Shown here in pieces: positions 2,920-53,653 of a DNA stretch of 64,000 nt. The notes below the pieces were generated by a model. It did no database searches, was not told the origin of the DNA, and saw only the letters and a program-made list of their open reading frames with translations. Position 1 is the stretch's first letter, and each line of letters starts with the position of its first letter. The position numbers and the translations under genes were made by a program. The stretch spans positions 1,930,001 through 1,994,000 of the forward strand of contig NC_013959.1 in assembly GCF_000025705.1 (NCBI RefSeq), in the 5' to 3' direction. The stretch comes from Sideroxydans lithotrophicus ES-1. GTDB taxonomy: Bacteria > Pseudomonadota > Gammaproteobacteria > Burkholderiales > Gallionellaceae.

Positions 2920-2928
2920 TTCTTCTCC

Positions 2929-4260: not shown

Positions 4261-4270
4261 AATTGCCCCC

Positions 4271-4298: not shown

Positions 4299-4326
4299 GT
4301 TGAAAAATAGAATCTGTCGGCTGATC

Positions 4327-5004: not shown

Positions 5005-5008
5005 GTTC

Positions 5009-6130: not shown

Positions 6131-6131
6131 G

Positions 6132-6527
6132 TTATTGGGTCACGTTGAAGGATAGGACTTGCGGGGTATTGGTCGTCGAGTCGACATACTGAATGTTGCA
6201 ACTGATGCCCTGATCGACCTGCTGCACGTCGATTTGCGGTTCAGGTGTTCTGGCAACGCAGGATTCCATCAACATCTGTCCGCGAATCCGCGCCCGAATC
6301 TTGGACGGGTCGTACAGGTCACCGACGTACTGCGGCAAGCCAGCGCCATAGTCGGGGTGCTGGGCATAATCGCCGGGCGTGATTGAACCGTCTGCATTGA
6401 TCGCCTGCGGGTTCGTCAGCAGCCTGCGCAGGATCCGTTGCTGGTTGCGCACGGTGCCATCGACGGTCGCAAGGTCGCCCGACGATCCGGCGCCGATGTC
6501 GTTACCCCAAAGGTGGAAGATGTCCAT
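6132..6527 (-). CDS. baseplate wedge protein W/gp25-like
   Basis: 131 aa. Contains the gp25-like core: an N-terminal helix with RNQQRILRRLLTNP, then HPDYGAGL and the RARIRGQ helix. Part of the conserved wedge core between V and J. Its ATG shares one base with the stop of the V gene frame, in a tightly coupled operon. Confidence 0.85.
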   Translation of the reverse strand: MDIFHLWGNDIGAGSSGDLATVDGTVRNQQRILRRLLTNPQAINADGSITPGDYAQHPDYGAGLPQYVGDLYDPSKIRARIRGQMLMESCVARTPEPQIDVQQVDQGISCNIQYVDSTTNTPQVLSFNVTQ

Positions 6528-9014: not shown

Positions 9015-9016
9015 CC

Positions 9017-10840
9017 TTAACCTCTAAATCCTGCACCGACCGGGCGCTGCATCATGCTGCCGTCAAAGCCAGATGTGCCGCCTGTCGGGCGACCAGCTGC
9101 GCGGGCCTGATGGCCTGACACGATTTCCCCGACCTTTTTGCCGTCCATGTAGACGGCGCTGTTGCCGGCGCTTGAAAATGACCTGCCCGACCGGACAGTT
9201 TTCGATTCCTGATCGAGCGCGTCCTGTGCTTCCTTGTTGCCAAGCAACGCCAGCAACCACGCGATGTTGTGTCCGCCACGGTCTTTGTGGGCATCCGACA
9301 GGTTGTCGTGGATCACTGAACCGACTGCGTATCCTGCCCCCAGCGCAGCGGCAGCCCCGCCCAAATATCGAAGGGCTGCCGCGCTTCTGCCTAGCGATGC
9401 GGCAACGCCACCGGCACCGCCAAATTCCAATGCCACACCCAGCAGTTTGATGCCGCTGCCCAAGACCATCAGCGGGCCGCTGACCATCATGGCAACGGAC
9501 AGGCCGGCGATGCTGTAAACCAGATTCTTCAAGCCGTCCGGATGCTTTCCTATCCATTCGCCCATCTGCTTTACCAGCGGGATGGCTTGCTCGAGTGCGG
9601 CCTTCAATAACGGCAGCGCTGCCGTGCCGAATTCCAGTTCCAGCTGGTTGACCTTCGCCTGCAGGTCGATCTGTTGGCCGACCGTCGAACCCTTACCCTG
9701 CGCATACAGGGCATTCATGCCCATAGCGTTCTGCGCCTGCGCCATGTAGTTGCCGATCTGGCCGCGCTCAAGGTAAAGCTGCGCCAGAAAGTCGGCGGCG
9801 TTCCGGTTGCTGGCCATCTGGTTGATGATCGGCAGCACCTTGTTGGTGTTGTTGATGTCCACGCCCTTGGCTGCCAGCTTCGGCAGCAGCACGGTATTCA
9901 GCCACGCCAGCGGGTTGTCGATCATCAGCTGCGACTGCGCCAGCGCGCCAGGTGCCACCTTGGTGATGTGGCCGGTCGTGCCGTATTTGATCTGATGCGG
10001 ATCCAGCAGGCCATATTTGGCCATCTGTTCGGCGACCTGCTGCGTCGTTCTGCCGGCGACCAAGTTCTGATAAGCCGACATCATCTGTTGGCCGGATCGC
10101 TGGCCGCCCTTTTCCTGCATGATGTGGCCCAGCGCGAACATGAAGTCGTCGTTCACGCTCTTGCCGGCGACACCACCTGTTTTCATCATGGCCAGAAAGT
10201 CGGACGGCTTGACCATGCCACCGGATGCCGCATAGTTCTTCACGAACAGGTCGGCCATGCGATCTAGCTTTTCGCTGGTGAAGTTGCGCATCAGGCCGCG
10301 CATTTCCATCACCTTCACGATGTCGGCGAACTGCTTCTCTGCACCCGCGCCGTGGCCTTCGCCCTTTCCCTGCCCCGACATATAGGCTTCCATGCCGAAG
10401 CGCATGCGCGCCAGCACAGGGGCCAATTCTGCCGTGTGTTTCATGTCGCCGGTAATGGCCTGCGTTTCAGTCACCAAGCGCAGCGCTTCCAGCTGGGTCG
10501 TGCCGGCCGTGCTTTTGGCGATGGCTTGCGCTTGCGCTGCCAGTGATGCCGTCGAACCGCCCCCGAACTTGTTGTCCAGGTTCAACGCTTTCAGACGGTT
10601 CATCTGCTGTTCGTAGCGCACAGCCTCATTCGTGGCCGCTTTCAGCGTCATCGCCAGCCCGAAACCTGCGCCGGTTGTCAGCGCGCCAGCCTTGAAAAGA
10701 CGGCCGATACGGTCCAGTTTGTTCTGTAATTCGCCTGCCTGGGTGTTGGCTTTGACCAGATGCCTTGTCAAAATGCCCATGACACCGCTAAACTCGTCCT
10801 TAATCCTGAGTTTTACGGCTACTTCGTAGGCATCAAACAT
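9017..10840 (-). CDS. tail tape measure protein
   Basis: 607 aa, longest tail gene. N-terminal coiled region (RIKDEFSGVMGILTRHLVKA), long helical Ala/Gln-rich body, and hydrophobic segments at about residues 450-520 (LVYSIAGLSVAMMVSGPLMVLG and an AAALRYLGGAAAALGAGYAVG stretch), as expected for a tape measure that also forms a membrane channel. Length would set a relatively short contractile tail (family knowledge). Its start overlaps a small opposing ORF. Confidence 0.88.
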   Translation of the reverse strand: MFDAYEVAVKLRIKDEFSGVMGILTRHLVKANTQAGELQNKLDRIGRLFKAGALTTGAGFGLAMTLKAATNEAVRYEQQMNRLKALNLDNKFGGGSTASLAAQAQAIAKSTAGTTQLEALRLVTETQAITGDMKHTAELAPVLARMRFGMEAYMSGQGKGEGHGAGAEKQFADIVKVMEMRGLMRNFTSEKLDRMADLFVKNYAASGGMVKPSDFLAMMKTGGVAGKSVNDDFMFALGHIMQEKGGQRSGQQMMSAYQNLVAGRTTQQVAEQMAKYGLLDPHQIKYGTTGHITKVAPGALAQSQLMIDNPLAWLNTVLLPKLAAKGVDINNTNKVLPIINQMASNRNAADFLAQLYLERGQIGNYMAQAQNAMGMNALYAQGKGSTVGQQIDLQAKVNQLELEFGTAALPLLKAALEQAIPLVKQMGEWIGKHPDGLKNLVYSIAGLSVAMMVSGPLMVLGSGIKLLGVALEFGGAGGVAASLGRSAAALRYLGGAAAALGAGYAVGSVIHDNLSDAHKDRGGHNIAWLLALLGNKEAQDALDQESKTVRSGRSFSSAGNSAVYMDGKKVGEIVSGHQARAAGRPTGGTSGFDGSMMQRPVGAGFRG

Positions 10841-11090
10841 GGCTCGGTTCTCTTTCTCTTTTAGGCTGCGTGACTGGCTGGCAGATCGTGTCCGCGGTAT
10901 TCAATATCCGCGCCAACAATACATGCCGCAAAGCACCCAACGGCCGTTTTTCCGCTATCAGATGCCACTGTGGCAGCGCATTGCGGCGTTGCAGCTTGGC
11001 CTATTCACCACTTTGGCCGGACTGCTTCTGTCGGCTGCCGGCCTATTTGTGGCTTACGTTTTCGTTAAAGCGCTTTTTTCCATTTCATAG
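10839..11090 (+). CDS. possible opposing small membrane protein gene
   Basis: An 83-aa plus-strand ORF fills the only sizeable gap (10,841-11,053) in the leftward tail operon. It begins FSFSFRLRDWLADRV, with a strong hydrophobic helix near the C-terminus (about residues 53-80). Start and end overlap neighbouring minus genes by 2 and 37 nt. The protein looks like a real basic membrane protein, but no clear SD or promoter is visible. Could also be chance coding opposite a spacer. Confidence 0.35.
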   Translation: MARFSFSFRLRDWLADRVRGIQYPRQQYMPQSTQRPFFRYQMPLWQRIAALQLGLFTTLAGLLLSAAGLFVAYVFVKALFSIS

Positions 11091-11557
11091 AACGCCTCGA
11101 TGCTGGGCTGTCCGCCGATCGATGCGGCTGCCGTCTTTCCGATGATCCTGTGCACCTTGTCGCGGCTGTCATAAGCTGCTGGGCCTAAGAATGGCCGCGG
11201 CGGGATGTGTTCTGTGCCGAATTCCTGATACTTGGCCACCGGGTCTTTGCTTCCGATGATGGCTTCCAATGCGTTGTGTTCGGTCACGATGGTGTCGCGC
11301 ATGTCGCCAGTGCGTAGCAAGGGTGCATCCAGCGGGAAGCCTTTGCGCGCCTTGTCTGCTTCGGTGCTGTCGGCAAGTGGTTCCCATGCCGGAAAGGGTC
11401 CGGTTTCTGCCTGGTATTCGCCGATCCGGTCTTGTGCGTCTTTCTGCACCACCTTGGCGGCAAAACCCATCGCGGTTTCCAGATTGACAACCAGCCGAAC
11501 GTTGTCAGCGACCAGCATTTCAGCAAGTCCGCCGAAGCTATCCAGCACCTTATTCAT
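11054..11557 (-). CDS. HK97-gp10/virion-morphogenesis-like tail completion protein
   Basis: 167 aa. C-terminal PLLRTGDMRDTI followed by KYQEFGTEHIPPRPFLGP is the signature of HK97-gp10-like/phage virion morphogenesis proteins that act at the head-tail interface. Here it lies between the tail chaperone and the tape measure. Its ATG (11,557) overlaps the stop (11,550-11,552) of the frameshifted chaperone extension by a few nt. Confidence 0.7.
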   Translation of the reverse strand: MNKVLDSFGGLAEMLVADNVRLVVNLETAMGFAAKVVQKDAQDRIGEYQAETGPFPAWEPLADSTEADKARKGFPLDAPLLRTGDMRDTIVTEHNALEAIIGSKDPVAKYQEFGTEHIPPRPFLGPAAYDSRDKVHRIIGKTAAASIGGQPSIEAFYEMEKSALTKT

Positions 11558-12085
11558 CTTTTTCCCATTTCAGGCGGTCGATGTTGAACTTGTTACCTTC
11601 GAAGCGGCTGAAGTTGATAGCCATCGCCTCGCGGAAAATGTCGTCCATTTCAAAGGCCGCATCGAACGGAACGCCATTTTTAACGAGCCAGCAAACTTCG
11701 AAAAAAACGTCGTTCCTTAGGATTTTTTTAAGTCTGCCTCGGCCTTTTTCTCGTCCTCGGAGTTTTCGCCGAATTTCTCATCGATGCCGGTCATTATGGC
11801 CGCGTAGCCGTGGGCATCCAGGCGCGTCAGTAGTGCATCGACTTCGCGCGGGGTCGTTGGTGTGGTCACTGCGTCATCGTCGATAGCCGCAACAAACAGA
11901 AGCGGGCTGACCATTGAAATGTAGGCGGACGGCACGTTGCCCAGCATCTTGACCATGTTGAATTGCGCCAGAAAATGCGGTTTTTTCAGCTTGATCTTGC
12001 GGCCTTTGGCATCTTCCACCGTATGTTCAGCGGCTGCCGTCGCTTTCATGGCATCGGATGGTTTGTTAAGTGTGAGGTTTGCCAT
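11550..12085 (-). CDS. tail assembly chaperone, -1 frameshifted long form (gpGT-like)
   Basis: If the ribosome slips back one base on the A7 run (11,723-11,729), translation leaves the short form after ...DLKK and continues ILRNDVFFEV...CWLVKNGVPFDAAFEMD... for about 58 residues to TAA at 11,550-11,552. The extension reads as a normal T-type domain, has no start codon or RBS of its own, and exactly fills the otherwise empty 11,558-11,716 gap. This is the conserved G/GT arrangement of long-tailed phages; the slippage itself is inferred. Confidence 0.78.
11717..12085 (-). CDS. tail assembly chaperone, short form (gpG-like)
   Basis: 122 aa, located between tube and tape measure genes as in most long-tailed phages. 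Charged protein with KKPHFLAQFNMVKMLG and VDALLTRLDAHGYAAIM, ending ADLKKS at TAA 11,717-11,719. The last codons are tta-aaa-aaa, which form a slippery A-tract (see next entries). Binds the tape measure during tail assembly. Confidence 0.82.
   Translation of the reverse strand: MANLTLNKPSDAMKATAAAEHTVEDAKGRKIKLKKPHFLAQFNMVKMLGNVPSAYISMVSPLLFVAAIDDDAVTTPTTPREVDALLTRLDAHGYAAIMTGIDEKFGENSEDEKKAEADLKKS
11723..11729 (-). promoter_or_regulatory. -1 ribosomal frameshift slippery heptamer
   Basis: Minus-strand A-AAA-AAA (zero-frame codons tta-aaa-aaa), two codons before the short-form stop. Both tRNALys can re-pair after a -1 shift. It is positioned precisely where the two chaperone frames must join. 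Confidence 0.75.
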
Positions 12086-33303: not shown

Positions 33304-33332
33304 AATATAAGGCATTGCCTAATGCCTGTCAA
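33304..33332 (-). promoter_or_regulatory. leftward early promoter of cro operon
   Basis: Minus-strand TTGACA (33,327-33,332), 17-bp spacer, TATATT (33,304-33,309). The spacer is an operator, so repressor binding blocks RNA polymerase. Drives cro, CII-like and replication genes. Confidence 0.85.
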
Positions 33333-33344
33333 TAGGTATTGCCT
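33310..33344. promoter_or_regulatory. operators O1 and O2 of the switch
   Basis: Two 11-bp palindromic boxes AGGCATTGCCT (33,310-33,320) and AGGTATTGCCT (33,334-33,344), 24 bp apart, inside and next to the cro promoter. The same pair recurs inverted at 34,805-34,839. Probable binding sites for the cI-like and Cro-like proteins. Confidence 0.8.
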
Positions 33345-33368
33345 AATTGCTTATCGAGAGGATTAAAT
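33339..33368 (+). promoter_or_regulatory. possible cI promoter
   Basis: TTGCCT (33,339-33,344), 18-bp spacer, TTAAAT (33,363-33,368); the predicted start is at or near the cI ATG (33,375), giving a leaderless transcript as with lambda cI from PRM. The -35 overlaps operator O2. Confidence 0.45.
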
Positions 33369-33369: not shown

Positions 33370-33380
33370 AGGCTATGCCT
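33370..33380. promoter_or_regulatory. operator O3 over the cI start codon
   Basis: AGGCTATGCCT, the same 11-bp box, contains the cI ATG (33,375-33,377). Binding here would give autoregulation of the repressor. Confidence 0.7.
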
Positions 33381-33731
33381 AAAAATACAGAACAACACTT
33401 GGGAGATAAACTCCGCCTTGCAATGGATGCGAAGGGGGTTAATCAGGCGGATGTCGCTAGGGAATTCGGGGTCAAGCCGCCTTCTGTTTCATCTGATTGG
33501 CTTAAATTCGGGCGTATCGATAAAAAGCATTACTCACATCTTGTTGAATACTTCGGTTTGCCATATGAATGGTGGTTTGGTGATGCCGGAGCGGATAAGA
33601 AAATTACAGATGTGATGCTTCACATGCTTAAAATGTCTGAGTCAGAGAAGAATCGCATGGTCAAAGAAGCTTTTTCTGATAAGAAACCGGAAGGAAACGG
33701 CGCTCATCCACCAAAACGGGCCTCTAAGTAA
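33375..33731 (+). CDS. CI-like lysogeny repressor, short HTH type
   Basis: 118 aa. HTH: GDKLRLAMDAKGVNQADVAREFGVKPPSVSSDWLKFGRIDKK; then EYFGLPYEWWFGD, typical of phage XRE-type repressors. There is no S24 peptidase (self-cleavage) domain, so induction cannot be by RecA-stimulated autocleavage and must use another route. Reads away from cro. The best SD (GAGGA) is about 12 nt from the ATG, too far for efficient initiation. Confidence 0.8.
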   Translation: MPKNTEQHLGDKLRLAMDAKGVNQADVAREFGVKPPSVSSDWLKFGRIDKKHYSHLVEYFGLPYEWWFGDAGADKKITDVMLHMLKMSESEKNRMVKEAFSDKKPEGNGAHPPKRASK

Positions 33732-34774: not shown

Positions 34775-34804
34775 CGTCCTGAGATTGCATCATACCAAAA
34801 TATA

Positions 34805-34845
34805 AGGCATTGCCTATTGACAGGCATTAGGCAATGCCTTACAGT
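34805..34845 (+). promoter_or_regulatory. rightward early promoter with duplicated operators
   Basis: TTGACA (34,817-34,822), 17-bp spacer, TACAGT (34,840-34,845). Operator boxes AGGCATTGCCT (34,805-34,815) and AGGCAATGCCT (34,829-34,839) are again 24 bp apart. The block is an inverted near-copy of the cro promoter region. It puts the DGR operon under the same repressor. Confidence 0.82.
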
Positions 34846-36026: not shown

Positions 36027-36938
36027 ATGAACGCACCCGATCAACATCAGCTGGGCCTGTATCACAAGTTCAACATCACCCGCACGGATGGCAAAGATGC
36101 GCCAGGCGAGAAGCATCACGGTGATGAGCATTTCGTCCTAAATCTGACCACGGACAAGAACGCCATTCTGGCCATCGTTGCGTATGCCGATGCATGTGAG
36201 GCTGAATACCCCCTGCTCGCTGCCGATCTGCGCGCCAAGATCAATCAAAGCGTGACTTCTGTAAACGAGTTCATTCAGGTGCCAGCCATCGCGTTGCCGA
36301 ATGGTGCGGTCGTTCCTTCCTTCCAAATGATGAAATACATCGCCGGTCGTGGCCCAGCAGACATTCCTGTCTCTACATCCGATGCCGAACCGTTCATAAA
36401 CATCAGCTATTTCGATGCTGATGCGAAAGCAGAAAGCGCAGGCTATAAACAAATTACCGCTCTCCAATCTCTGGCGGTGTCATGGGACATTTACCTGCAA
36501 CCGGAAAACTGGCTCAGCGGCAAGGTCGGCGTCGGCTCGCTCAAACAAGGCTTGCACAAAGGAACCGTCGATTGTGCGCAGCCTGGCACTTACATCTCAC
36601 CCGATGCCGAAGAAGATCGCTGGTTCGTTCTCTCTAACGGTGAGCGCATCTGCGACTGGTCGGGGAATCTCTTTCAATGGATGCGCGATGACCTGCATGG
36701 CGATGAGCGCGGCCTGACTGGCGTAATCCCCGCCGACTCTCTCCTGCTCACCACATGTCCTGCGCCTTCGATGAAGGACGGCACCGGCTGGCGTCCTGAA
36801 GGTGGCGCGAATTGGTCTGGCCGTGCGCTCATCCGGGGCGGCTTCTGGGGTTCCGGGTCGGGTGCGGGCGTCTTCGTTCTCTACAGCGACGGCCCCGGGT
36901 ACGGGGACGACGTCATCGGCTTTCGCTGCACCAAATAG
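36027..36938 (+). CDS. DGR target protein 1 (CLec-fold variable protein)
   Basis: 303 aa. Residues 1 to about 75 form a domain with YHKFNITRTDGKDAPGEKHHGDEHFVLNL and ACEAEYPLLAADLR, a family common in phage small proteins and not a tail domain. Residues about 88-303 form an FGE-sulfatase/C-type-lectin-like fold: PSFQMMKYIAG, LQSLAVSWDIYLQPENW, SNGERICDWSGNLFQWM, NWSGRALIRGGFWGSGSGAG...GFRCTK. VR1 covers residues about 263-301 and ends at the C-terminus. SD GGAGAT precedes ATG. The VR position matches Mtd/TvpA-type DGR targets. Confidence 0.9.
   Translation: MNAPDQHQLGLYHKFNITRTDGKDAPGEKHHGDEHFVLNLTTDKNAILAIVAYADACEAEYPLLAADLRAKINQSVTSVNEFIQVPAIALPNGAVVPSFQMMKYIAGRGPADIPVSTSDAEPFINISYFDADAKAESAGYKQITALQSLAVSWDIYLQPENWLSGKVGVGSLKQGLHKGTVDCAQPGTYISPDAEEDRWFVLSNGERICDWSGNLFQWMRDDLHGDERGLTGVIPADSLLLTTCPAPSMKDGTGWRPEGGANWSGRALIRGGFWGSGSGAGVFVLYSDGPGYGDDVIGFRCTK
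36815..36928 (+). repeat. DGR variable repeat VR1
   Basis: 114 bp aligned gap-free with TR 42,437-42,550. Differs at 12 of 20 TR adenines and at none of 94 other positions. Amino-acid changes relative to TR: H to R, Y to F, S to G, N to V/Y/S/G, E to G twice, D to V. Ends GGCTTTCGCTG, after which VR has C where TR has A. The true 5' limit may be 3 bp further out (TR AAA versus TTG). Confidence 0.97.
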
Positions 36939-36980
36939 GTCTCTGAGTCACCGGTCTCAGGTCGCGGCGTAGCCGTGGCC
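36939..36980 (+). promoter_or_regulatory. conserved DGR element downstream of VR1 with stem-loop
   Basis: Starts one base after the target 1 stop codon and is repeated after VR2 (one indel, four substitutions). Its 3' half GGTCGCGGC-GTA-GCCGTGGCC (36,960-36,980) folds into a 9-bp stem with two G-U pairs. In BPP-1 a hairpin just downstream of VR is needed for efficient target recognition; this is the likely counterpart. Confidence 0.75.
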
Positions 36981-37007
36981 CTCTAAAAACAACAGGAGAT
37001 AACTGAA

Positions 37008-38000
37008 ATGGAACAACAAGAAAAAGGAAGTAACCCGTTTGGGGTGGCAACGCAATCGGCTAAACAGCCAGGCAATGCCGTCGCTCAATCCGATCAGCAG
37101 CGGTCAATCGCGGAGGTGCAAGCGGCAATGATGATCGCCCGCATGAACCCGCGCGACCCGATAGCAGCCATGGACCGCATCTTGAATGCATGCACACGTC
37201 CGACTTTAGCCGATGCCGCGGTCTACACCTATTCGAAGGGCGGCAGCGACGTTTCCGGCCCCTCTATTCGACTGGCTGAGGCAATGGCGCAGGCATGGGG
37301 AAACATGCAGTTCGGTATTCGCGAACTTGACCAGTCGGGCGGCGAATCCACTGTCCAAACCTACGCATGGGATGTTGAAACCAACACTCGACGCGAAGTG
37401 ACCTTTCAGGTGCCGCATGTTCGCTACACCAAGAAAGGCAGCTACAAGCTGGAAGACCCGCGCGATGTTTACGAACTGGTAGCCAATCAAGGCAGCCGCC
37501 GCCTACGCGCCTGCATTCTTGCCATTCTCCCAGGCGATGTTACAGAAGCCGCAGTAGCTCAGTGTGAGGCGACCATGAAGATCAAGGCTGATACCAGCCC
37601 CGAGGCGATGCAGAAGATGGTTGTGGCATATGAAGCGTTCGGCGTCACAAAAGACCAGATCGAGAAGCGCATACAGCGCCGTCTGGATGCAATTCAGCCT
37701 GCGCAGGTAGTGAGTCTGAAAAAGATTTACGCCAGCCTCCGCGACGGCATGAGCGCAGCGGCGGATTGGTTCGAAGTTGCTGAAGGTGGCGAAGCTGCAC
37801 CAAAGCAATCAACTGGCAATAAAGATGAGTTGCCAGTATGCACACCCGAGCAGTTCGCCGACCTCAGTAAAGAATGGGAACCCTTGGTGCGCTCCGGCAA
37901 GAAGAAGGCCAAGGCGATCATCGCTACCGCCAAAACCACCATGACCTTCACGGATGAGCAACTGTTCCAGATCGATGCGTGGGAAAAGGAAGGGAGTTAA
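37008..38000 (+). CDS. putative ssDNA-annealing recombinase (RecT-like role)
   Basis: 330 aa. Central region (IARMNPRDPIAAMDRILNACTR, SGPSIRLAEAMAQAWGN, QVPHVRYTKKG, RRLRACILAILPGDV, AVAQCEATM) belongs to a phage family that sits next to YqaJ exonucleases. The pairing with the next gene gives a Red-like exonuclease/annealase module. The assignment is by neighbourhood and pattern, not by a diagnostic RecT motif. Confidence 0.65.
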   Translation: MEQQEKGSNPFGVATQSAKQPGNAVAQSDQQRSIAEVQAAMMIARMNPRDPIAAMDRILNACTRPTLADAAVYTYSKGGSDVSGPSIRLAEAMAQAWGNMQFGIRELDQSGGESTVQTYAWDVETNTRREVTFQVPHVRYTKKGSYKLEDPRDVYELVANQGSRRLRACILAILPGDVTEAAVAQCEATMKIKADTSPEAMQKMVVAYEAFGVTKDQIEKRIQRRLDAIQPAQVVSLKKIYASLRDGMSAAADWFEVAEGGEAAPKQSTGNKDELPVCTPEQFADLSKEWEPLVRSGKKKAKAIIATAKTTMTFTDEQLFQIDAWEKEGS

Positions 38001-38002
38001 TC

Positions 38003-39691
38003 ATGGAACAACACGACTTCTTGCAAGGTTCGCCCGAATGGCACGCACACCGCGCAACCCATTTCAATGCCAGCGATGCGCCGGCCATGCTCGGCATCAG
38101 CCCGTACAAGACGCGCAGCCAGCTGCTTGATGAGTTGGCCACGGGCATCACCCCGGAGGTTGACGAAGCCACGCAGCGCCGCTTTGACGATGGGCACCGC
38201 TTCGAGGCGTTGGCTCGCCCGGTAGCCGAGAAGATCATCGGCAGGAAGCTCTATCCGATTGTCGGCACAGAAGGCAAGCTGTCTGCTTCCTTCGATGGCC
38301 TGACCATGGACGAAGCAATCTGCTTCGAACACAAGAGCCTGAACGGCGCTATACGTGCTGTCGAAACTGCTGCCGACATCCCAGAATACATTCGCGCCCA
38401 GATGGAACAGCAGCTCATGGTGTCGGGTGCCAAAACATGCCTGTTCTTGGCAAGCAACTGGAACGCTGATGGCGAACTGGTTGAAGAAATACACGTCTAT
38501 TACGACCCAGATCAGGCCATGCGTGATCGATTGCTGCAAGGCTGGACTCAATTCGCAATCGACATTGAGAACTACAAGCCGCGCGTCACTGCTGAAATGC
38601 CAAAAGCTGAAGTCTCAATCGAACTGCCTGCCCTGTTCATCAATGCGCATGGCTCGATCACCAGCAGCAACATGGAAGCCTACGGCATTGCGCTCAAGAG
38701 CAAGTTGGCCGAGGTGCGCAAGATCAAGCTGATCACCGATCAAGACTTCTCCAACGCCAAGGAAGCGGCCAAGATGTTCCGCGAGCAGTGCCAGAAGCTG
38801 AAGCTGGCGAAGGAAGCCATGCTCGCCCAGACCGTTTCCATCGGTGAGGCTGCGCAGATGATGGATGCATGGGGCGAAGACCTTCGCACTACTGCGCTGC
38901 AGCTTGAAAAGGATGTCGAGAAGGAAGACTTGGCGAAGAAGCGCCTGATGGTCACCGAGGCCGCTCTCGCTTTTGCTGCTCACGTCGAAGCGCTGGAAAC
39001 CGAGACTCGCCCGATCCAATTGAACTTGCAAAAGCCCGACTTTGCAGCGGTCATCAAGGGCAAGCGCAACTACACCAGCATGCAGGACGCCATCGATACC
39101 GAACTGGCGAGCGCCAAGATCGTTTCCGATGCCGTTGCCAAAGATGTACGAACCAAATTGGCATGGTGCAAGGAAACGTCTGCCGGGTTCGGTTTTCTGT
39201 TTGCCGACCTGTCGCAGATCATCACAAAGCCGCTGGATGACTTCAAGCTGGTGGTGACAACGCGCATCACTGAGCACAAAGCTGCCGAGGCAGCGAAGCT
39301 GGAAGCTGAACGTATGCGCATCCAGGCGGAAGAGGAAGTGAAGGCCCGCGCCAAGGTCGAAGCAGAACAGCGCGCAGCAGCAGAGGCTGAAGCCATTGAA
39401 GGACGCCGCAAGGCAGTCGCTCTGGCCGAGCAGGAACGTGCTCTTGCAACGAAACACCATACCCCCCCAGAGAGCCAAGCCGTCACGCTAGACGGGGCGC
39501 AGCCTTCATTAGTGAAGACGGAACCTGCTGCGCCAGTTACCGCAAAGGTAATTCCAATTCTCGAATCGGCTCCGATCCGTCCGCTTGACATTGAAATCAT
39601 CGATGCTGTTGCCGAGCATTTTGGTGTCGAGTACCAGACAGCAAAAGATTGGGTTCTCGAAGTTGCAGAGAATCTTGCAGTCGCGGCCTAA
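38003..39691 (+). CDS. YqaJ-type phage exonuclease with long C-terminal extension
   Basis: 562 aa from ATG 38,003 (an ATG at 37,979 lies inside the preceding gene). N-terminal ~200 residues are a YqaJ/lambda-exo-like nuclease: GSPEWHAHRATHFNASDAPAMLGISPY, LSASFDGLTMDEAICFEHKSLN (catalytic D...ExK) and EYIRAQMEQQLMVSG. Residues about 230-460 are a coiled-coil-rich extension, with a strongly charged Ala/Glu/Arg helix near 410-460. Together with the annealase it would process dsDNA ends for recombination. Confidence 0.85.
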   Translation: MEQHDFLQGSPEWHAHRATHFNASDAPAMLGISPYKTRSQLLDELATGITPEVDEATQRRFDDGHRFEALARPVAEKIIGRKLYPIVGTEGKLSASFDGLTMDEAICFEHKSLNGAIRAVETAADIPEYIRAQMEQQLMVSGAKTCLFLASNWNADGELVEEIHVYYDPDQAMRDRLLQGWTQFAIDIENYKPRVTAEMPKAEVSIELPALFINAHGSITSSNMEAYGIALKSKLAEVRKIKLITDQDFSNAKEAAKMFREQCQKLKLAKEAMLAQTVSIGEAAQMMDAWGEDLRTTALQLEKDVEKEDLAKKRLMVTEAALAFAAHVEALETETRPIQLNLQKPDFAAVIKGKRNYTSMQDAIDTELASAKIVSDAVAKDVRTKLAWCKETSAGFGFLFADLSQIITKPLDDFKLVVTTRITEHKAAEAAKLEAERMRIQAEEEVKARAKVEAEQRAAAEAEAIEGRRKAVALAEQERALATKHHTPPESQAVTLDGAQPSLVKTEPAAPVTAKVIPILESAPIRPLDIEIIDAVAEHFGVEYQTAKDWVLEVAENLAVAA

Positions 39692-39719
39692 TTTTCCAAC
39701 CACACGAAAGGCAGAAACC

Positions 39720-40004
39720 ATGAACACTGAAACCAAAGAACGTCCAGTCATCGCGATGGACAAGGTGGAATCCTCGCAGATCGCCGCCATTGGTCACCAT
39801 CCGGAAACCAACACGCTCGCCATTCAATTCGCGGCCAGGTCCGGTACCGGCAGCATCTACCACTACTCGAACTTCACAGCCGAGGACTTCGCGGCCTTCA
39901 AGGGTGCTGAGTCCATTGGCAGTCACTTCGGGAAGGTCATCAAGCCGAATCCCGAGAAATATCCGTTCGTGAAGGTCTGGCCAGCTTTGCCGGAGGCAGT
40001 GTAA
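39720..40004 (+). CDS. KTSC-domain protein
   Basis: 94 aa; ATG 39,720. Contains the KTSC core: ESSQIAAIGHHPETNTLAIQF, SIYHYSNFTAEDFAAFKGAESIGSHF. The domain is widespread in phage and lysyl-tRNA-synthetase-linked proteins with unknown biochemical activity. Stop overlaps the next start (TAATG). Confidence 0.8.
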   Translation: MNTETKERPVIAMDKVESSQIAAIGHHPETNTLAIQFAARSGTGSIYHYSNFTAEDFAAFKGAESIGSHFGKVIKPNPEKYPFVKVWPALPEAV

Positions 40005-40474
40005 TGGCCCTCGAACTCGAAGACAGCATCTGCTCCCTCAAGCACATCAACGCACGGAAAGAAGGCTCAGAGGACGACAAGGAACTGGCCGTCGACCTCA
40101 AGATTGAAATCGACGAAGCCGCCGTTGATGTCCTGCCGCAATTCGCCCCCAGCCTGCGCGGCTTCATGTTCGATAAAGACGCCGTGCGCTTTCCGCAGAT
40201 GGGCGCCGTCAAGTGGAGCGGAGAACACGTCAACATGGAAATCGAGTTGTGCGGGTTCATCTTCAAGGAAGCACGTCTCTCTAAGTTCGAGATCGAGCCT
40301 TACATCGAACCGCGCGGCCAAGACTGGGAGGATTACGCCGACTTCCAGCGCATCAAGCTCACGCTGAGCTGTTCCTTCAAGCCTCAAGGTTCCGAGATTG
40401 CCTCTATGGCAGAACTGTTGGGCGAAGACACGAAGATCAGCATCCGTGCCCGTCAGCAAGAACTCGCAATCTAA
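40004..40474 (+). CDS. 156-aa phage protein of the recombination module
   Basis: Acidic, mostly beta protein (DKELAVDLKIEIDEAAVDVLPQF, MFDKDAVRFPQMGAVKW, KISIRARQQEL at the C-terminus). Coupled to the KTSC gene and located right before DGR target 2. A family of this type accompanies YqaJ genes; function not known to me. Confidence 0.6.
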   Translation: MALELEDSICSLKHINARKEGSEDDKELAVDLKIEIDEAAVDVLPQFAPSLRGFMFDKDAVRFPQMGAVKWSGEHVNMEIELCGFIFKEARLSKFEIEPYIEPRGQDWEDYADFQRIKLTLSCSFKPQGSEIASMAELLGEDTKISIRARQQELAI

Positions 40475-40489
40475 CCGGAGACATTATCC

Positions 40490-41515
40490 ATGTGCAATCG
40501 CCACAGCTTCATCCTCACCCGCGCCGGCAAAGTTCTAGACGGACTCGGCCTTACTGACCATCACACAGAAATTCTTGAACTACACGGATTTAAAAATACC
40601 GACGACACTGTAAACAAAGGTGAGTGGCAGCCACCAAAAGGATGGCCCGATGCAGATTGGGAAGACGGATGGACAAAAGACACGACTGTATTTGAATACA
40701 AGAAATCACATCTTGATGCCATTGGGCGCCATTTGAAAAAACTCTATCCAACCATGGCCGAGTGGGATGCGGGCGATAAGCTGCGCGAACTGTCCAAGGC
40801 GGAATGCGACGAAGCCAAACATCTAATGGCAGACAGTGAATTCATCGTTGTGCCGCAAGTCACGCTGCCGGACGGCCTGGTCGTTCCATCCTTCAAAGTC
40901 GCGAAATATCCGATGTCTCGCCGCGCCAATGCCATTCCGGTCAGCGTTGCATCCGACAAACCATGGAGCAGAGTTTCGTATCACTCAGCTTGCGCTGTCA
41001 GCGCCCGTGTCGGCCTGCAACTGATTCGTGAGACGCAAGCGCTGGCAATCGCTTACGACATTTACCTCCAGCCGGAAAACTGGACAGGCGGCAAGGTCGG
41101 TGAAGGGCAACTGTTTCAAGGCATCCGCAAAGGCAACGTTGGCAGCGCACAGGCAGGAGATTGCGAGTCAAAAGACCCAACAGAACGCTCCTGGCATCAA
41201 CTGAGCAACGGCGAGCGCATTTATCACTTCGCCGGAAACATCTTCACATGGGTGCATGACGATGTGCAAGGCGACGACAAAGGATTGAGCGGCAAGATCA
41301 CTGCTGACTCCATATCGCTCACCACCTCCCCGCATAAATCCTGCGAGAAGGGTGTCGGCTATATCCCTGATGGTGCCCGAGATTGGTCTGGCCGTGCGCT
41401 CATCCGGGGCGGCTTCTGGGGTTCCGGGTCGGGTGCGGGCGTCTTCCATCTCGGCGGCGACGACCCCGAGTACGGGGGCGGCGGCGTCGGCTTTCGCTGC
41501 ACCTTCGGTCTCTGA
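40490..41515 (+). CDS. DGR target protein 2 (CLec-fold variable protein)
   Basis: 341 aa. Residues 1 to about 105 form an N-terminal domain unlike target 1: MCNRHSFILTRAGKVLDG, EWQPPKGWPDADWEDG, LKKLYPTMAEWDAGDK, a family also found as separate small phage proteins. Residues about 118-341 share the CLec fold with target 1 (PSFKVAKYPMS, AIAYDIYLQPENW, SNGERIYHFAGNIFTWV, DWSGRALIRGGFWGSGSGAG...GFRCTFGL). VR2 spans residues about 299-337. So one variable module is attached to two different N-termini. Confidence 0.9.
   Translation: MCNRHSFILTRAGKVLDGLGLTDHHTEILELHGFKNTDDTVNKGEWQPPKGWPDADWEDGWTKDTTVFEYKKSHLDAIGRHLKKLYPTMAEWDAGDKLRELSKAECDEAKHLMADSEFIVVPQVTLPDGLVVPSFKVAKYPMSRRANAIPVSVASDKPWSRVSYHSACAVSARVGLQLIRETQALAIAYDIYLQPENWTGGKVGEGQLFQGIRKGNVGSAQAGDCESKDPTERSWHQLSNGERIYHFAGNIFTWVHDDVQGDDKGLSGKITADSISLTTSPHKSCEKGVGYIPDGARDWSGRALIRGGFWGSGSGAGVFHLGGDDPEYGGGGVGFRCTFGL
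41386..41499 (+). repeat. DGR variable repeat VR2
   Basis: 114 bp aligned gap-free with TR. Differs at 14 of 20 TR adenines and at no other position. Changes: H to R, Y to F, S to G, N to H/G/G/D, E to G, D to G three times, I to V. Three 5' changes and one later A to G are identical to VR1. Confidence 0.97.
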
Positions 41516-41548
41516 TCACTGGTCTCCGGTCGCGGCGCAGCCGTGACC
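41508..41548 (+). promoter_or_regulatory. conserved DGR element downstream of VR2 with stem-loop
   Basis: Matches the element after VR1; it overlaps the target 2 stop codon (TGA 41,513-41,515). Stem-loop 41,528-41,548: GGTCGCGGC-GCA-GCCGTGACC. Compared with VR1 a T-G pair has become T-A, so pairing is kept. No such hairpin follows TR. Confidence 0.75.
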
Positions 41549-41566
41549 TAGCCAAATAGGATAAAC

Positions 41567-42412
41567 ATGAACGAAACACAACCCACCGCCGAAGAGCTGT
41601 CCCAGCATAGTCTCCGCACCTTCAAAGGTATTGAAGTCGGGCTTGGACAAGCCGATCCGATTGCAACCATCGCAGCCAAGCTGGAAGAACAATATCCGGG
41701 TCATCTCATCCTGGTGCAAGCTGGCAAGTTCCTCCATGGCTACGACAGATCGGCCTATGCCCTCGCCATTCTGAAGAAGTACCAGCTCAAGTTGGTCGGA
41801 ACTGCGGCCGAGCCGCATATTCGCGTCGGTTTTCCGGTTGGTAACTTCAAGCGCCGATTGTGGACCGTTGTAGAAGAGTTCGGCATTCCCTATGCGGTGG
41901 CGCTCGGCACCTTGGCCATCGGTCGCACGATCTATGTGTCCAGTCAGCCCACCGGCAACAGTCAGGTGCTGGAATCGGTATTACCTAATGTCATCGCGGA
42001 CGTGATTGATGACCTCAAGCAGCGTGGCGAAGTGAACAAAGCCGCTGCCCAGCAACTGTTAACCAATCCAGACAACACCAGCTTCCAACTCAAGACGAAG
42101 GCCAAGGAACTAGACCTGCAGTTGCTTCAAGACATCATCAAGATGCCGCGCGATCTGCGCGCAACCTATGGGGAAAATCTCCGCGTATGTATCGGCAGGA
42201 TCCTGCGCGGTGCAATGGCTTACGGTCTGGAAGATAACAAACCCCAGTTGCTCAAGTCCATTTCCGCCGATGTGGACATGCTCAAGCACTATCTGGCACA
42301 GGCTCCACGGTTAAACGGACTCAAGCTCGCATTCGAGCATCGAGCCGGTTTAGCCGTTGAGCTTGGCAAGCTTGTTGGCGGTCTCATTCGCTTGCAAGGA
42401 GTTCAGCCATGA
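41567..42412 (+). CDS. DGR accessory protein: MutS-like (MSL) domain fused to Avd-like helical bundle
   Basis: 281 aa. Residues about 36-125 follow MutS domain I: EEQYPGHLILVQAGKFLHGYD, then LKLVGTAAEPHIRVGFPVGNFKRRLW and EEFGIPYAVALG. Residues about 180-278 are a helical bundle with LQLLQDIIKMPRDLR, NLRVCIGRILRGAMAYGLED, DMLKHYLAQAPRLNG and a final ELGKLVGGLIRL helix, the pattern of Avd, which binds the DGR RT and template RNA. MutS-like (MSL) DGR accessory factors are known; the visible Avd-like C-terminus suggests a fused two-function protein. SD AGGATAAAC-ATG. Confidence 0.85.
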   Translation: MNETQPTAEELSQHSLRTFKGIEVGLGQADPIATIAAKLEEQYPGHLILVQAGKFLHGYDRSAYALAILKKYQLKLVGTAAEPHIRVGFPVGNFKRRLWTVVEEFGIPYAVALGTLAIGRTIYVSSQPTGNSQVLESVLPNVIADVIDDLKQRGEVNKAAAQQLLTNPDNTSFQLKTKAKELDLQLLQDIIKMPRDLRATYGENLRVCIGRILRGAMAYGLEDNKPQLLKSISADVDMLKHYLAQAPRLNGLKLAFEHRAGLAVELGKLVGGLIRLQGVQP

Positions 42413-42436
42413 CTCAGCAAAGGGGATTCTCTGAAA

Positions 42437-42550
42437 GTCTGGCCATGCGCTCATCCGGGGCGGCTACTGGAGTTCCGGGTCGGGTGCGGGCGTCTTCAAT
42501 CTCAACAACGACAACCCCGAGTACGAGGACGACGACATCGGCTTTCGCTG
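42437..42550 (+). repeat. DGR template repeat TR
   Basis: 114 bp with 20 adenines concentrated in AAT/AAC/GAC/TAC codons when read in the VR frame (…VFNLNNDNPEYEDDDIGFR-stop). This codon bias gives maximal variability in target residues. TR lies between the accessory gene and the RT and is transcribed with both. Confidence 0.97.
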
Positions 42551-42684
42551 ACCCAAGAAATAAAAGCTTAGACGTTGGGCACGCCCTCGGAAAGCAAACT
42601 CTTGGTCGAGAATCTCCTGGTGCACAAGCACCAAAAGCACGGCAACACGCCCAACCGAGAACCGCTGCGCTGCCTACGGGTGGT

Positions 42685-43683
42685 GTGGTGGAATGCGGTG
42701 CGGAATTCTATCGCCTGACCACTCTAGATAATCTCTGGAACTGCTGGATGCATGCCCGCTGCAACAAGGGCGGTCGCTTGCGCATCCAGCGTTTTGGCGA
42801 AGACCCGCTGCGGCACCTGATCACCATTCAGAAGCAGCTACGCGAGCGCCGGTACCAGTTCGGCCCATATAAGACGTTCACCGTTCGCGAGAAGAAATTC
42901 CGCGACGTGGTTGATGCGCCAATGAAGGACCGTATCGTGCACTGGATGCTATACCAGTATCTGCTGCCGATCTGGCAGCCTCGCTTCATCCATGACACCT
43001 TTGGCAACCTGCCCGGGCGTGGCACGCATGCTGCCCTCCGTCGCCTGGCACAGTTCGCCCGCAGCGAGCGCGCCGAATGGGTACTTCAGCTCGACATCAG
43101 TAAGTATTTTTACTCGGTCAATCACGCCCTGCTGAAAGAGCGCGTCTTGCGCCACATCGGCGATCACGAGTTGCGCGCACTGATCATCAATCTGATCGAT
43201 TCCTTCCGGACTGATGGCAGCTATGACCATCTGTTCGCCGAATCCACGCTGTACCGGCAGACACCAGCGAAGGGTATGCCGATCGGCAATCTATCCTCGC
43301 AACTGTTTGCCAACATCTTTCTGAATGACTTCGATCATTGGGTGAAAGAAACGCTGCGCGTGAAGCGCTATGTCCGCTACGTGGACGATATGGCGATCCT
43401 GGGCGAATCACGCGAAGAGCTGCAGGAAGTCTGCGAACAGATCACCAGCAATCTGGCCAGCGAAGGCCTGACGATTCATCCACACAAGATACGCATCGCG
43501 CCAACGCGCGCCGGAGTGCCTTTCTTGGGTTCAATCGTCTGGCCAAATCATATCAGCGCAGGTCGTTATATTAGGAGTCGTTACCTACACAGGATCCGTC
43601 AGCACGAGTCCGGCGCACGGGACAGAACCGAAGCGCTGCGCTCATACCGAGCAATGTTCAAGCACACAGGGGTGACACGATGA
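42685..43683 (+). CDS. DGR reverse transcriptase
   Basis: 332 aa from GTG 42,685. The frame stays open back to ATG 42,409 (424 aa), which overlaps the accessory stop by 4 nt, but those 92 codons read through TR in another frame and give low-complexity Ser/Thr/Arg sequence, so the later start is preferred. RT motifs: VLQLDISKYFYSVNH, GMPIGNLSSQLFANIFLND (DGR-type SQ motif) and RYVRYVDDMAILG (catalytic YVDD at 232-235). The SQ in place of the usual QGxxxSP is linked to adenine infidelity in DGR RTs. No maturase or endonuclease domain. Confidence 0.95.
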   Translation: MVECGAEFYRLTTLDNLWNCWMHARCNKGGRLRIQRFGEDPLRHLITIQKQLRERRYQFGPYKTFTVREKKFRDVVDAPMKDRIVHWMLYQYLLPIWQPRFIHDTFGNLPGRGTHAALRRLAQFARSERAEWVLQLDISKYFYSVNHALLKERVLRHIGDHELRALIINLIDSFRTDGSYDHLFAESTLYRQTPAKGMPIGNLSSQLFANIFLNDFDHWVKETLRVKRYVRYVDDMAILGESREELQEVCEQITSNLASEGLTIHPHKIRIAPTRAGVPFLGSIVWPNHISAGRYIRSRYLHRIRQHESGARDRTEALRSYRAMFKHTGVTR

Positions 43684-43922: not shown

Positions 43923-45745
43923 CCCCGCAATACATCATGGACCTGAACGACGAGATCATCATCGATAACTTTGCCGGCGGTGGCGGGGCTTCAACTGGTT
44001 TCGAATTGGCGCTTGGGCGACATGTGGACGTGGCGATCAACCACGATCCGGAGGCGGTCTCCATGCACCAGGCAAACCATCCGCAGACGCGACATTATTG
44101 CGAATCAGTTTGGGAAGTTGACCCGCGTACCGTTCATCCCGGCCGGAAGATCGGCGCGCTATGGCTTTCTCCTGACTGCAAGCACTTCAGCAAAGCCAAG
44201 GGCGGCAAACCAGTCGAAAAGAAGATTCGCGGTCTCGCCTGGGTGGCATTGCGCTGGGTAGCCATCCGCAAGCCCCGCCGCCTGTTTCTGGAAAATGTCG
44301 AAGAATTCATTACTTGGGGGCCGCTAGTATCCGATGCCAACGGCAACATGCGGCCATGCCCAAAGAACAAGGGGCGCGAGTTCAATGCATTCGTCAATGC
44401 CCTGCGCCGTCACGGTTATGTTGTGGATTGGAAAGAATTGCGTGCCAGCGACTATGACACTCCGACCATTCGCAAACGCCTATTTCTTGTTGCGCGCTGC
44501 GATGGTCAGCCGATTGTCTGGCCAGAAGCAACCCACGGCGCGCCGGATAGTGAAAAGGTTAAGAGTGGATGGCTGCTGCCATGGCGCACCGCTGCTGAGT
44601 GTATCGACTGGTCTCTACCATGCCCGTCTATCTTTCTGACCAAAGAGGAAGGCCGCGCTATCGGCGTAAACCGGCCTTTGGCGGACAACACATTGCGCCG
44701 AGTAGCCAAGGGCATCATGCGTTACGTGGTCAATGCCGCCGAGCCGTTCATTGTGCCGCTCACCCACCACGGCGCCGACCGCCGCACTGGCATGGAACAG
44801 CCGCTGCCGACCGTTACTGCCGCTCATCGTGGCGAAATGGCGCTGATACAACCGTTCATCACCGAACACGCCAACGGCTCCAATCAGCGGAACATGCCAG
44901 CAGACGAACCGCTGCGCACGCAATGCGCCCAGGTCAAGGGCGGACACTTCGCGGTCGTTCAGCCTTTTATCTCGACTTATTACGGTGACAAGCGCCCGGG
45001 CGATGTGCGCGGTATCAGCATGGATGAACCTCTGCATACGCAAACCACCGAGAATCGACATGCGCTGGTATCCGCCTTCATGGCAAAGCACTACGGCGGC
45101 GTGGTCGGTCACAGCCTTAACGACGAACCGCTGCATACCATCACCAGTAGCGATCACAATTCTCTGGTGACGGCCCACATCGTTGGCGCTGGCGGCCCCG
45201 TCTACAGCGGAAAACCAAAAGCTATTGATGAGCCGTTCGGTACCATGACGGCCGAGAACCATCGCGCTCTGGTCACCAGCAACATCGTCAAGATGCGCGG
45301 CACCAATGTCGGACAGGATAACCGCGAGCCGTTGCATACCATCAGCGCGCAGGGAACTCACTTCGCCGAGGTTCGCTCGTTCCTGATCAAGTATTACGGC
45401 ACCGATCAGGATCCTCAATTGCGCGAACCACTCCACACGGTCACCACCAAGGACCGCTATGGCCTCGTGACCGTCCACGGTGAGGAATATGCCATCGTAG
45501 ACATCGGCATGCGCATGCTGGCACCGCGCGAGCTCTTCCGGGCGCAGGGATTTCCCGAGAAATACATCATCGACCGCGGCCTGCACATCGACGCGGATGG
45601 TAATCATCATTGGAAGCCACTCACAAAGAGCGCCCAGGTGCGCATGTGCGGTAACAGCGTCTGCCCGCCGCTGGCGGCTGCGCTGATTCGGGCTAATTGC
45701 GCGGACATGATCGTCAGCAAAGAAGTGAAACGGAGGTCAGCATGA
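43916..45745 (+). CDS. C5 cytosine DNA methyltransferase with internal repeat array
   Basis: 609 aa. Motif I DNFAGGGGASTGFE; catalytic-loop variant SPDCKHFS with the Cys near residue 88 (usual form PCQ); ENV motif FLENVEEF; and TPTIRKRLFLVA and C-terminal RMCGNSVCPPLAAAL (motif X). Between about residues 293 and 510 seven copies of an EPLHTxT unit recur every 32-40 residues, occupying the target-recognition region. Longer than the usual 330-420 aa. No cognate restriction gene is visible, so self-protection is likely. Confidence 0.88.
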   Translation: MLTPQYIMDLNDEIIIDNFAGGGGASTGFELALGRHVDVAINHDPEAVSMHQANHPQTRHYCESVWEVDPRTVHPGRKIGALWLSPDCKHFSKAKGGKPVEKKIRGLAWVALRWVAIRKPRRLFLENVEEFITWGPLVSDANGNMRPCPKNKGREFNAFVNALRRHGYVVDWKELRASDYDTPTIRKRLFLVARCDGQPIVWPEATHGAPDSEKVKSGWLLPWRTAAECIDWSLPCPSIFLTKEEGRAIGVNRPLADNTLRRVAKGIMRYVVNAAEPFIVPLTHHGADRRTGMEQPLPTVTAAHRGEMALIQPFITEHANGSNQRNMPADEPLRTQCAQVKGGHFAVVQPFISTYYGDKRPGDVRGISMDEPLHTQTTENRHALVSAFMAKHYGGVVGHSLNDEPLHTITSSDHNSLVTAHIVGAGGPVYSGKPKAIDEPFGTMTAENHRALVTSNIVKMRGTNVGQDNREPLHTISAQGTHFAEVRSFLIKYYGTDQDPQLREPLHTVTTKDRYGLVTVHGEEYAIVDIGMRMLAPRELFRAQGFPEKYIIDRGLHIDADGNHHWKPLTKSAQVRMCGNSVCPPLAAALIRANCADMIVSKEVKRRSA

Positions 45746-46965
45746 CCATTCGCGACCTCTCTCTCTTTGAAGGTAGCGCCCGCCTTCAGATGACTGAATC
45801 AATCGAACTGACTATCCAGAGCTTGCAAGCTTATGGCCATGAGCACGATCACTGGGTAATTGCGTGGTCTGGTGGGAAGGACAGCACAGCGACACTCACC
45901 CTGATTGTCTGGCTGATCACGTCAGGAAAGATCAAAGGTCCGAAACGATTGACTGTCTTGTATGCCGATACCCGCATGGAATTACCGCCTCTCGCAATCG
46001 CGGCGAGCGAAATCATGGATGAACTGGCGGATCGCGATATTGAATTCAGGGCAGTTCGCGCGCCTCTGGATAAGCGCTTCCTTGTCTACATGCTTGGCCG
46101 CGGTGTCCCGCCGCCGAATAACAACACACTGCGTTGGTGCACTAGACAGATCAAGGTCGATCCAATGGCGGCCGCTATCGCCGAATCGCTTGGCGACGGC
46201 ACCGCATTGACTATTACCGGCGTTCGGCAGGGAGAAAGTGCTATCCGCGACCGTCGCATTGAGATGAGTTGCGGCAAGGACGGCGCCGAGTGCGGCCAAG
46301 GCTGGTATCAACAGGTCCTTCCGGAGAGTAAAGGTGTGCGCGGCCGCATCGCCACGCTGGCACCACTGTTGCACTGGCGCGTCTGCCACGTCTGGGAATG
46401 GCTACGTAACTGGGCACCCAAGGAAGAGTTCGGAGGCTGGCCAACCGAGATCATTGCCGATGCCTATGGCGGCGATGAGGCCGAAGAGTTAAACGCCAGA
46501 ACAGGCTGCATTGCATGTCCGCTTGCCCAGGAAGAAAAAGCGCTGGAAAGCATCATCGCGCTGCCACGTTGGGGGCATTTAACACCGTTGCGTGACTTGA
46601 AGCCGATCTATCGCTGGCTTCGTGAACCGGCTCAGCGCCTGCGCAAGTCGGGCGTCGAACGCCTGAAGGACGGATCAATCGGGAAGAACCCGCAACGTAT
46701 GGGGCCATTGACATTGGAAGCCAGATTGAAAGCTCTGGAAGACATCCTCTCCATTCAAAAACGCATCAATGCAGCCGATGGCCGTCTGACCTTAAACCTG
46801 ATTGACGAAGAGGAAGAATCTCGCATTCGTGAGCTGATAGCAGCAGAAACTTGGCCGAATGGTTGGGATGGCGATGAACCGCACGCTGATCAATTCTTGC
46901 CGGTTATTTTCTATGAAAACGGTGCCGAACAACATGACCTATTTGGATTGGAGGAAACAGTATGA
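45742..46965 (+). CDS. PP-loop PAPS-reductase/DndC-like protein
   Basis: 407 aa from ATG 45,742 (ATGA overlap with the methyltransferase). PP-loop SGGKDS at 43-48 binds ATP and activates a substrate by adenylation. WCTRQIKVDP and GCIACPLAQEE cysteines fit a Fe-S or zinc site as in PAPS reductase and DndC. DndC acts in DNA phosphorothioation with DndA/B/D/E; no partners are present here. The neighbouring methyltransferase suggests a DNA-modification role (inference). Confidence 0.75.
   Translation: MTIRDLSLFEGSARLQMTESIELTIQSLQAYGHEHDHWVIAWSGGKDSTATLTLIVWLITSGKIKGPKRLTVLYADTRMELPPLAIAASEIMDELADRDIEFRAVRAPLDKRFLVYMLGRGVPPPNNNTLRWCTRQIKVDPMAAAIAESLGDGTALTITGVRQGESAIRDRRIEMSCGKDGAECGQGWYQQVLPESKGVRGRIATLAPLLHWRVCHVWEWLRNWAPKEEFGGWPTEIIADAYGGDEAEELNARTGCIACPLAQEEKALESIIALPRWGHLTPLRDLKPIYRWLREPAQRLRKSGVERLKDGSIGKNPQRMGPLTLEARLKALEDILSIQKRINAADGRLTLNLIDEEEESRIRELIAAETWPNGWDGDEPHADQFLPVIFYENGAEQHDLFGLEETV

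Positions 46966-52045: not shown

Positions 52046-53653
<1,608 letters not shown>

Follow-up and report, generated by a model that had tools for sequence, protein, structure and literature searches.

The window analysed here, a stretch of 64,000 nt from Sideroxydans lithotrophicus ES-1 (NC_013959.1), carries at positions 36,027-43,683 a diversity-generating retroelement (DGR) with two target genes, each containing a variable repeat (VR) at its C-terminal end and followed by a hairpin, together with a gene for an accessory protein, a template repeat (TR) and a reverse transcriptase (RT) gene (Table 1). A sequence-only reading of this DNA had described the system as a complete two-target DGR in a prophage early operon, and our analysis bears out its completeness: the RT, an Avd domain, the hairpins and TR/VR pairs with adenine-only mismatches are all present in the prophage, off the strand that carries the structural genes.

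Table 1. Features of the DGR locus, with positions in the window
Feature	Position	Strand	Description
Target gene 1	36027-36938	+	303 aa; FGE/C-type-lectin-like fold (Foldseek); phrog_9572, 2.7e-28
VR1	36815-36928	+	substituted at 12 of 20 A and at 0 of 94 other bases
Hairpin behind VR1	36960-36980	+	stem of 9 pairs (7 Watson-Crick) with loop GTA; downstream of the stop codon
Target gene 2	40490-41515	+	341 aa; paralogue of target 1
VR2	41386-41499	+	substituted at 14 of 20 A and at 0 of 94 other bases
Hairpin behind VR2	41528-41548	+	stem of 9 pairs (8 Watson-Crick) with loop GCA; downstream of the stop codon
Accessory protein	41567-42412	+	281 aa; MutS-domain-I-like N half, Avd C half
RT ORF	42409-43683	+	overlaps the accessory gene at an ATGA; frame open through TR; RT homology begins near 42700
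TR	42437-42550	+	114 nt, 20 A; from TR/VR comparison and own-genome search
Structured RNA element	42541-42696	+	overlaps TR 3' end and spacer; window sequence in the model

The two VRs depart from the TR exclusively at template adenines, which account for all 12 mismatches in VR1 (combinatorial chance 2.3e-11) and all 14 in VR2 (1.2e-13). VR1 and VR2 also differ from each other, at 11 sites, every one of which is an adenine in the TR. The repeat coordinates and the counts of changed bases in the sequence-only reading are correct to the base, as is its statement that one template feeds two genes about 4.6 kb apart, the VRs being separated by 4571 nt. When read in the VR frame, seven of the TR adenines occupy the first and 13 the second codon position, and none lies elsewhere. 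A search of the genome recovered three TR-like copies, namely, TR, VR1 and VR2, with no fourth.

The RT contains the YVRYVDD and IGNLSSQ motifs, the latter corresponding to the SQ motif, a hallmark of DGR RTs. It matches Pfam RVT_1 (1.9e-26), and its best sequence match in the PDB is the DGR RT 8ub7 (6.3e-34), compared with 9.4e-18 for the best group II intron RT; the YVDD and SQ motifs had been noted in the sequence-only reading. Among the 63 related loci (see below) in which this could be judged, 54 have an RT frame that begins in an ATGA overlapping the stop codon of the accessory gene and stays open through the TR, whereas in nine the frame is not joined to the TR (five more of the 68 loci could not be judged). 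We considered the TR inside an open RT frame as a possible novelty and rejected it, because other DGRs show the same: of 49 other DGR loci, 37 yielded a TR and 12 did not, and in 18 of the 37 the RT frame runs through the entire TR without a stop; in BPP-1, the 360 nt preceding brt are free of in-frame stops; and a TR overlapping the RT open reading frame (ORF) is described for DiGReF group 3 (PMC3521204). In a codon test on 23/26 joined sequences, with near-identical ones removed, pN/pS (the ratio of non-synonymous to synonymous polymorphism) was 1.11 in the TR, 0.77 in the spacer and 0.28 in the RT core, suggesting little protein-level constraint on the TR and spacer part of the frame. A shuffle test of the open frame gave no stops against a shuffled mean of 6.2, a comparison that is biased and not relied on because the sequences were picked as open.

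Relatives of the locus were identified through the accessory protein, which is matched in 68 loci, made up of 60 viral contigs and eight (L026-L033) of 57 bacterial loci found through their RT. The match spans about 260 residues or more, most of the length of the protein, in 60 of the 68. All eight bacterial relatives carry betaproteobacterial names, and the hosts of this DGR group, where named, are Betaproteobacteria. A single VR was detected in 14 loci, two VRs in 37, three in nine and none in eight, most of the last having no flank or being cut. Thus, one to three A-biased VRs are present in 60 of 68 relatives and two or three in 46, suggesting that phages of this group usually have two or three targets; these counts refer to records rather than independent cases, several being the same prophage (for instance, L018 and L029). 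Overall, 1998 of 2120 TR/VR mismatches in the relatives are at a template A; of the 122 located elsewhere, 98 fall within 15 nt of the 3' boundary. These data bear on a simple alternative, that VR1 and VR2 are paralogous gene ends accompanied by a duplicated fragment, with no retroelement involved. The two targets are indeed paralogues, with 53% identity over 223 aa and a nucleotide identity of 56.9% or 67.6%, with or without gapped columns. However, the confinement of the mismatches to A (chance 1e-11 to 1e-13), the presence of an RT and of hairpins, and the recurrence of the A-biased pattern across the relatives leave this explanation a negligible chance.

Natural activity of the lineage is best indicated by target pairs that are more than 90% identical over the 400 nt before the VR. 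There are 11 such pairs, with identical VRs in three. The targets of L012 (5243-5962 and 7035-7937) are identical at 400 of 400 positions before the VR, and between their VRs there are 20 differences in 126 sites, 19 of them at TR adenines; L012 is a metagenome contig, for which misassembly is possible. In four further pairs, the VRs show 20, 22, 23 and 18 differences, of which 20, 22, 23 and 17, respectively, are at TR adenines. The share is lower in the three pairs that involve L007 (24 of 32, 22 of 30 and 13 of 21), for which a one-position error in the VR starts may be responsible.

The ends of the repeats are distinct in TR and VR. The sequence past the repeat pair reads CGCTG-ACCC in the TR and CGCTG-CACC in both VRs, and, among the relatives in which the motif was found, CGNTG is followed by ACCC in 58 of 58 TRs and by CACC in 110 of 110 VRs. 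The VR boundary letters encode Cys-Thr, invariant in 38 aligned targets, whereas the TR letters GACC pair with GGTC in the spacer, invariant in 34 of 34 sequences. This pairing would provide a simple reason for the fixed difference, although invariant pairs do not in themselves constitute evidence. Hairpins with at least seven Watson-Crick pairs were found in an inverted-repeat scan behind 99 of 115 VRs, compared with five of 60 TRs and 87 of 2000 random windows. The commonest loops in the relatives are GTA, GTAA, GTCA, GCA, GAA and GTGA, as retrieved by a scan favouring the longest stem. Single-stranded DNA folding of the stretches behind the two VRs of the window yielded no significant z-score (-0.59 and -0.82).

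The spacer between TR and the RT homology encodes a covarying structured RNA that extends into the TR end. An alignment of 34 spacers from joined-frame loci with a TR, from which five variant-motif sequences and near-duplicates were dropped, supports a fold of 34 pairs. Double changes occur in 20 of these, and 96.8% of the alignment cells pair, versus 33-43% when the partners are slid. By each of five measures, all 500 shuffles fell short of the observed value, in a control that is lenient owing to the relatedness of the sequences. A covariance model recovered the element in eight of the nine relatives in which the RT frame is not joined to the TR (the exception being L117). In the seven of these with a known TR, the element overlaps the TR end even though the RT is mostly far away; therefore, it travels with the TR, as expected of a template RNA. 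The model found no convincing copy in the 49 other RT loci, in positions 1-12000 of BPP-1, or in L117, L025, L116, L119 and L120. Two marginal matches, in L075 (E 0.8) and at 11444-11538 of the window (E 0.42), were taken as chance.

The accessory protein looks like a fusion of a MutS mismatch-recognition domain with Avd. The C-terminal half is recognizable as Avd by sequence (phrog_3206, 2e-7, residues 169-274), and Pfam bAvd is matched by 22 of 22 members of the accessory family at E<=1 (best 5.5e-5); 11 of the 22 match Pfam MutS_I at the same threshold (best 0.015). In a Foldseek search, the AlphaFold model (mean predicted local distance difference test score, pLDDT, 73.9; predicted template modelling score 0.47) retrieved MutS structures as the top PDB matches, the first at 8.7e-4 and the next nine at 1.4e-3 to 3.5e-3, followed by the Avd chains of 8ub7, 8ub8, 8ube and 4dwl (target template modelling (TM) score 0.68-0.83, E 0.004-0.03). 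A profile comparison (hhalign) with the MutS of 13 of 20 MutS loci fetched gave a weak match (E 0.0048, probability 3%), in a register that sets GKFLHGY of the accessory protein on GDFYELF of MutS. MutS reads mismatches through a Phe-x-Glu motif. The accessory family lacks this motif: across 69 aligned rows, the Phe is kept (F in 66, W in two, one gap), and the Glu is replaced (H in 64, Q in three, R in one, one gap).

No relative of the accessory protein was detected among 50,697 phage records, and its profile matched only one of 399 genomes of the order, namely, the genome of origin. Among the 49 other RT loci, the MutS-like half was matched in L069 only (1.7e-9). In that locus, which belongs to a Mariprofundaceae genome, a divergent protein beside the RT (L069:1-726) spans both the MutS-like and the Avd halves in a profile comparison (1.4e-10); the Avd-half profile alone gave no match there at E 0.01. 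MutS-like (MSL; Pfam PF01624) proteins are known DGR accessory proteins (PMC10053308), and the protein described here resembles them in placing a MutS_I-type domain beside a DGR RT but differs in joining the MutS-like domain and Avd in one chain. No description of an Avd-MSL fusion was found in the parts of the DGR literature searched, among which the 2018 DGR survey is not included. With regard to host repair, mutS was deleted in one study so that DGR substitutions would be better preserved, and the same study reports no influence of MutS on its insertion reporter (PMC12875486); the ES-1 genome keeps a MutS of its own. The fate of DGR-made mismatches under host repair is little explored in the portions of the literature considered here, and the Avd fusion with a MutS-domain-I-like half offers a concrete, testable handle on it.

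Judging by its gene content, the DGR belongs to a temperate contractile-tailed phage. PHROG matches place tail fibre, baseplate, tape measure, sheath, portal and terminase genes on the minus strand at 2.9-23.9 kb, and replication genes and NinB on the same strand at 27.8-32.2 kb, whereas a RecE-like exonuclease, SSB and a serine integrase are encoded on the plus strand. The DGR sits in this plus-strand arm: the RecE-like exonuclease gene and a KTSC-domain gene are placed between the two target genes, and a cytosine methylase gene follows behind the element. The 'early' label of the sequence-only reading is thus one that strand and neighbours suggest. The published description of ES-1 includes a second phage cluster (Slit_1888-1969; 54.3 kb) that adjoins a 16S-23S rRNA cluster (PMC3770913), and RNA-seq showed upregulation of the second prophage cluster on thiosulfate, with the DGR genes not being named in the sections of that report considered here (PMC8788666). 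We take this cluster to be the prophage of the window. The thiosulfate response, in a host that is cultivated and probably an iron oxidizer, provides a ready condition for testing DGR activity. It also speaks against the notion that the cassette is a fixed relic of past diversification, now silent in this strain, as do the open ORFs and the lack of any non-A drift between the TR and either VR. Given that a single genome of the strain is at hand, a relic would be compatible with the pattern, but we consider it improbable.

The structural model of target 1 (pLDDT 76.9, most of the VR segment being below 50) matches formylglycine-generating enzyme (FGE; 2.7e-5), Mtd (1.2e-4) and also TaqVP in Foldseek, with query TM scores of about 0.3-0.4; among viral models, the first match is a sulfatase-modifying-factor-like phage protein, and further matches include the T7 tail fibre (1.1e-3) and tail collar fibres (6.1e-3 and 1.2e-2). 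The window targets contain no Pfam domain at E up to 0.1, and no relative of target 2 was found among the 50,697 phage records, in a search from which target 1 was left out. In a crude hydropathy scan, values above 1.6 over 19 residues occurred in two of 38 targets, neither from the window, suggesting that the window targets have no strongly hydrophobic segment. A host protein (G000:C1:2689018-2689299, minus strand, L126), which lies outside the three TR-like copies, is weakly similar to the targets (6.5e-5).

One possibility is that the targets are virion receptor-binding proteins produced from another operon and added to the tail, in which case the element would be an ordinary tropism-switching DGR. 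The matches of the target 1 model to Mtd and to tail fibre proteins fit such a role, as does the annotation of most viral DGR targets of clades 1, 4 and 6 as tail proteins (PMC8144416). The genomic setting argues otherwise. Of 19 relatives searched for structural markers, one contained a terminase profile and five a baseplate profile; in all six, the marker is on the strand opposite the DGR and 8.6 kb or more away, and L009 encodes a tail-fibre homologue on the opposite strand as well, so that the DGR opposes the structural-gene strand in the window and in all seven relatives with such a gene seen. A RecE-, SSB-, KTSC- or phrog_3657-type gene is located in the flank of 21 of the 68 loci, invariably on the DGR strand (21 of 21), and the target neighbours in the window are recombination, SSB and methylase genes. 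Furthermore, the BPP-1 DGR abuts tail genes on its own strand, whereas the window DGR is neither in nor beside the tail operon, and a tail fibre gene that lacks a VR is present separately in the prophage. We give the receptor-binding role a real chance, although one short of even. Because the targets are probably expressed outside the late operon and show no strongly hydrophobic segment, a role as canonical tail fibres is less likely than one as binding proteins that are intracellular or expressed in the lysogen; we infer that they are not late proteins and may act inside the cell.

Taking these lines of evidence together, we are highly confident in a joint reading in which a temperate contractile-tailed phage carries a complete DGR with non-late targets and an accessory protein whose MutS-like half would act at mismatches. 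By analogy with the BPP-1 model, the TR RNA would be copied by the RT together with the accessory protein, errors would enter opposite A during copying, and the cDNA would replace either VR next to its hairpin; the MutS-domain-I-like half may then engage mismatches in the cDNA/VR duplex. A bolder version holds that this domain holds the cDNA/VR duplex or hides it from host MutS and that the DGR diversifies non-virion, intracellular binding proteins, such as counter-defence or superinfection factors, encoded with recombination and replication genes, rather than tail fibres. We regard this combination as tentative and, on balance, unlikely. Should the targets prove to be non-virion proteins, the group would extend the use of DGRs by phages beyond host attachment.

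Several observations weigh against the joint reading, in addition to the dependence among the records counted above and the resemblance of target 1 to Mtd and tail fibre models. Strand and distance do not measure expression, and incorporation of the targets into the virion is compatible with both; moreover, 13 of the 19 searched records show no structural marker, and none of the four early marker genes was seen in 47 of the 68 loci. As for the accessory protein, the window sequence has no Pfam MutS match, its bAvd match (E 0.011, residues 192-275) is below the cut-off, and only the first of its Foldseek matches passes E 0.001. The hairpin loops of the window, GTA and GCA, do not fit the 4-nt GRNA loop of phage DGR hairpins in BPP-1 and its kin (PMC3240598). 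Finally, that the DGR is active in this strain is suggested by sequence data only.

The closest well-characterized counterpart is the DGR of BPP-1, which shares with the window element the order target, Avd, TR, spacer, RT, the distance from the TR end to the RT (144 nt to brt in BPP-1, 137 nt to the RT homology in the window), the hairpin behind the VR and the C-type-lectin-like target. By contrast, BPP-1 has a single target, located next to tail genes and on their strand, a plain Avd and, within positions 1-12000, no match to the spacer RNA model. The DGR of ES-1 itself is not new: the DiGReF survey of 2012 lists a two-VR DGR of ES-1 among 24 multi-VR DGRs (PMC3521204, Table 2), which is very probably the element of the window, given the two VRs and the prophage near rRNA genes. 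That table gives only the RT GI, the VR count and a target identity of 62.1%, and the sections of the survey considered here do not treat the accessory protein, the context or the RNA. Several VRs were reported for 271 of 948 DGRs in a later survey (PMC6642488). Accordingly, one template serving two targets is not a novelty, and the designation of the system as the main discovery of the window was overstated. Multiple targets within one locus, with C-terminal FGE domains of a CLec-fold subtype, have also been described for Thiohalocapsa (PMC10907252); as far as the relevant parts of that work go, those targets are fused to domains of cellular conflict systems, whereas the window targets lack Pfam domains. 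The variant features would be the MutS-like/Avd fusion and the non-late multi-target design, which appear to be common to a group of phages and prophages.

Several further features of the region were noted. The stretch extending 9 kb to the left of the window contains a partial large-subunit rRNA gene and a 5S rRNA gene; small-subunit rRNA was not reported in this stretch, part of which is masked. The serine integrase gene (52046-53620) overlaps at its end with a tRNA gene (53580-53653, minus strand), marking a possible prophage boundary, and a search for att sites revealed no exact repeat of at least 14 nt shared between this tRNA/integrase end and the left flank. In the DGR arm, a phosphoadenosine-phosphosulfate-reductase family protein (45697-46965, plus strand; phrog_12882, 3.5e-213) is encoded by a gene that overlaps the end of the C5 cytosine methylase gene. 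A 40-nt inverted repeat (33308-33347 and 34802-34841), 93% complementary, brackets 1.45 kb containing a repressor-like gene (33375-33731) and two more ORFs.

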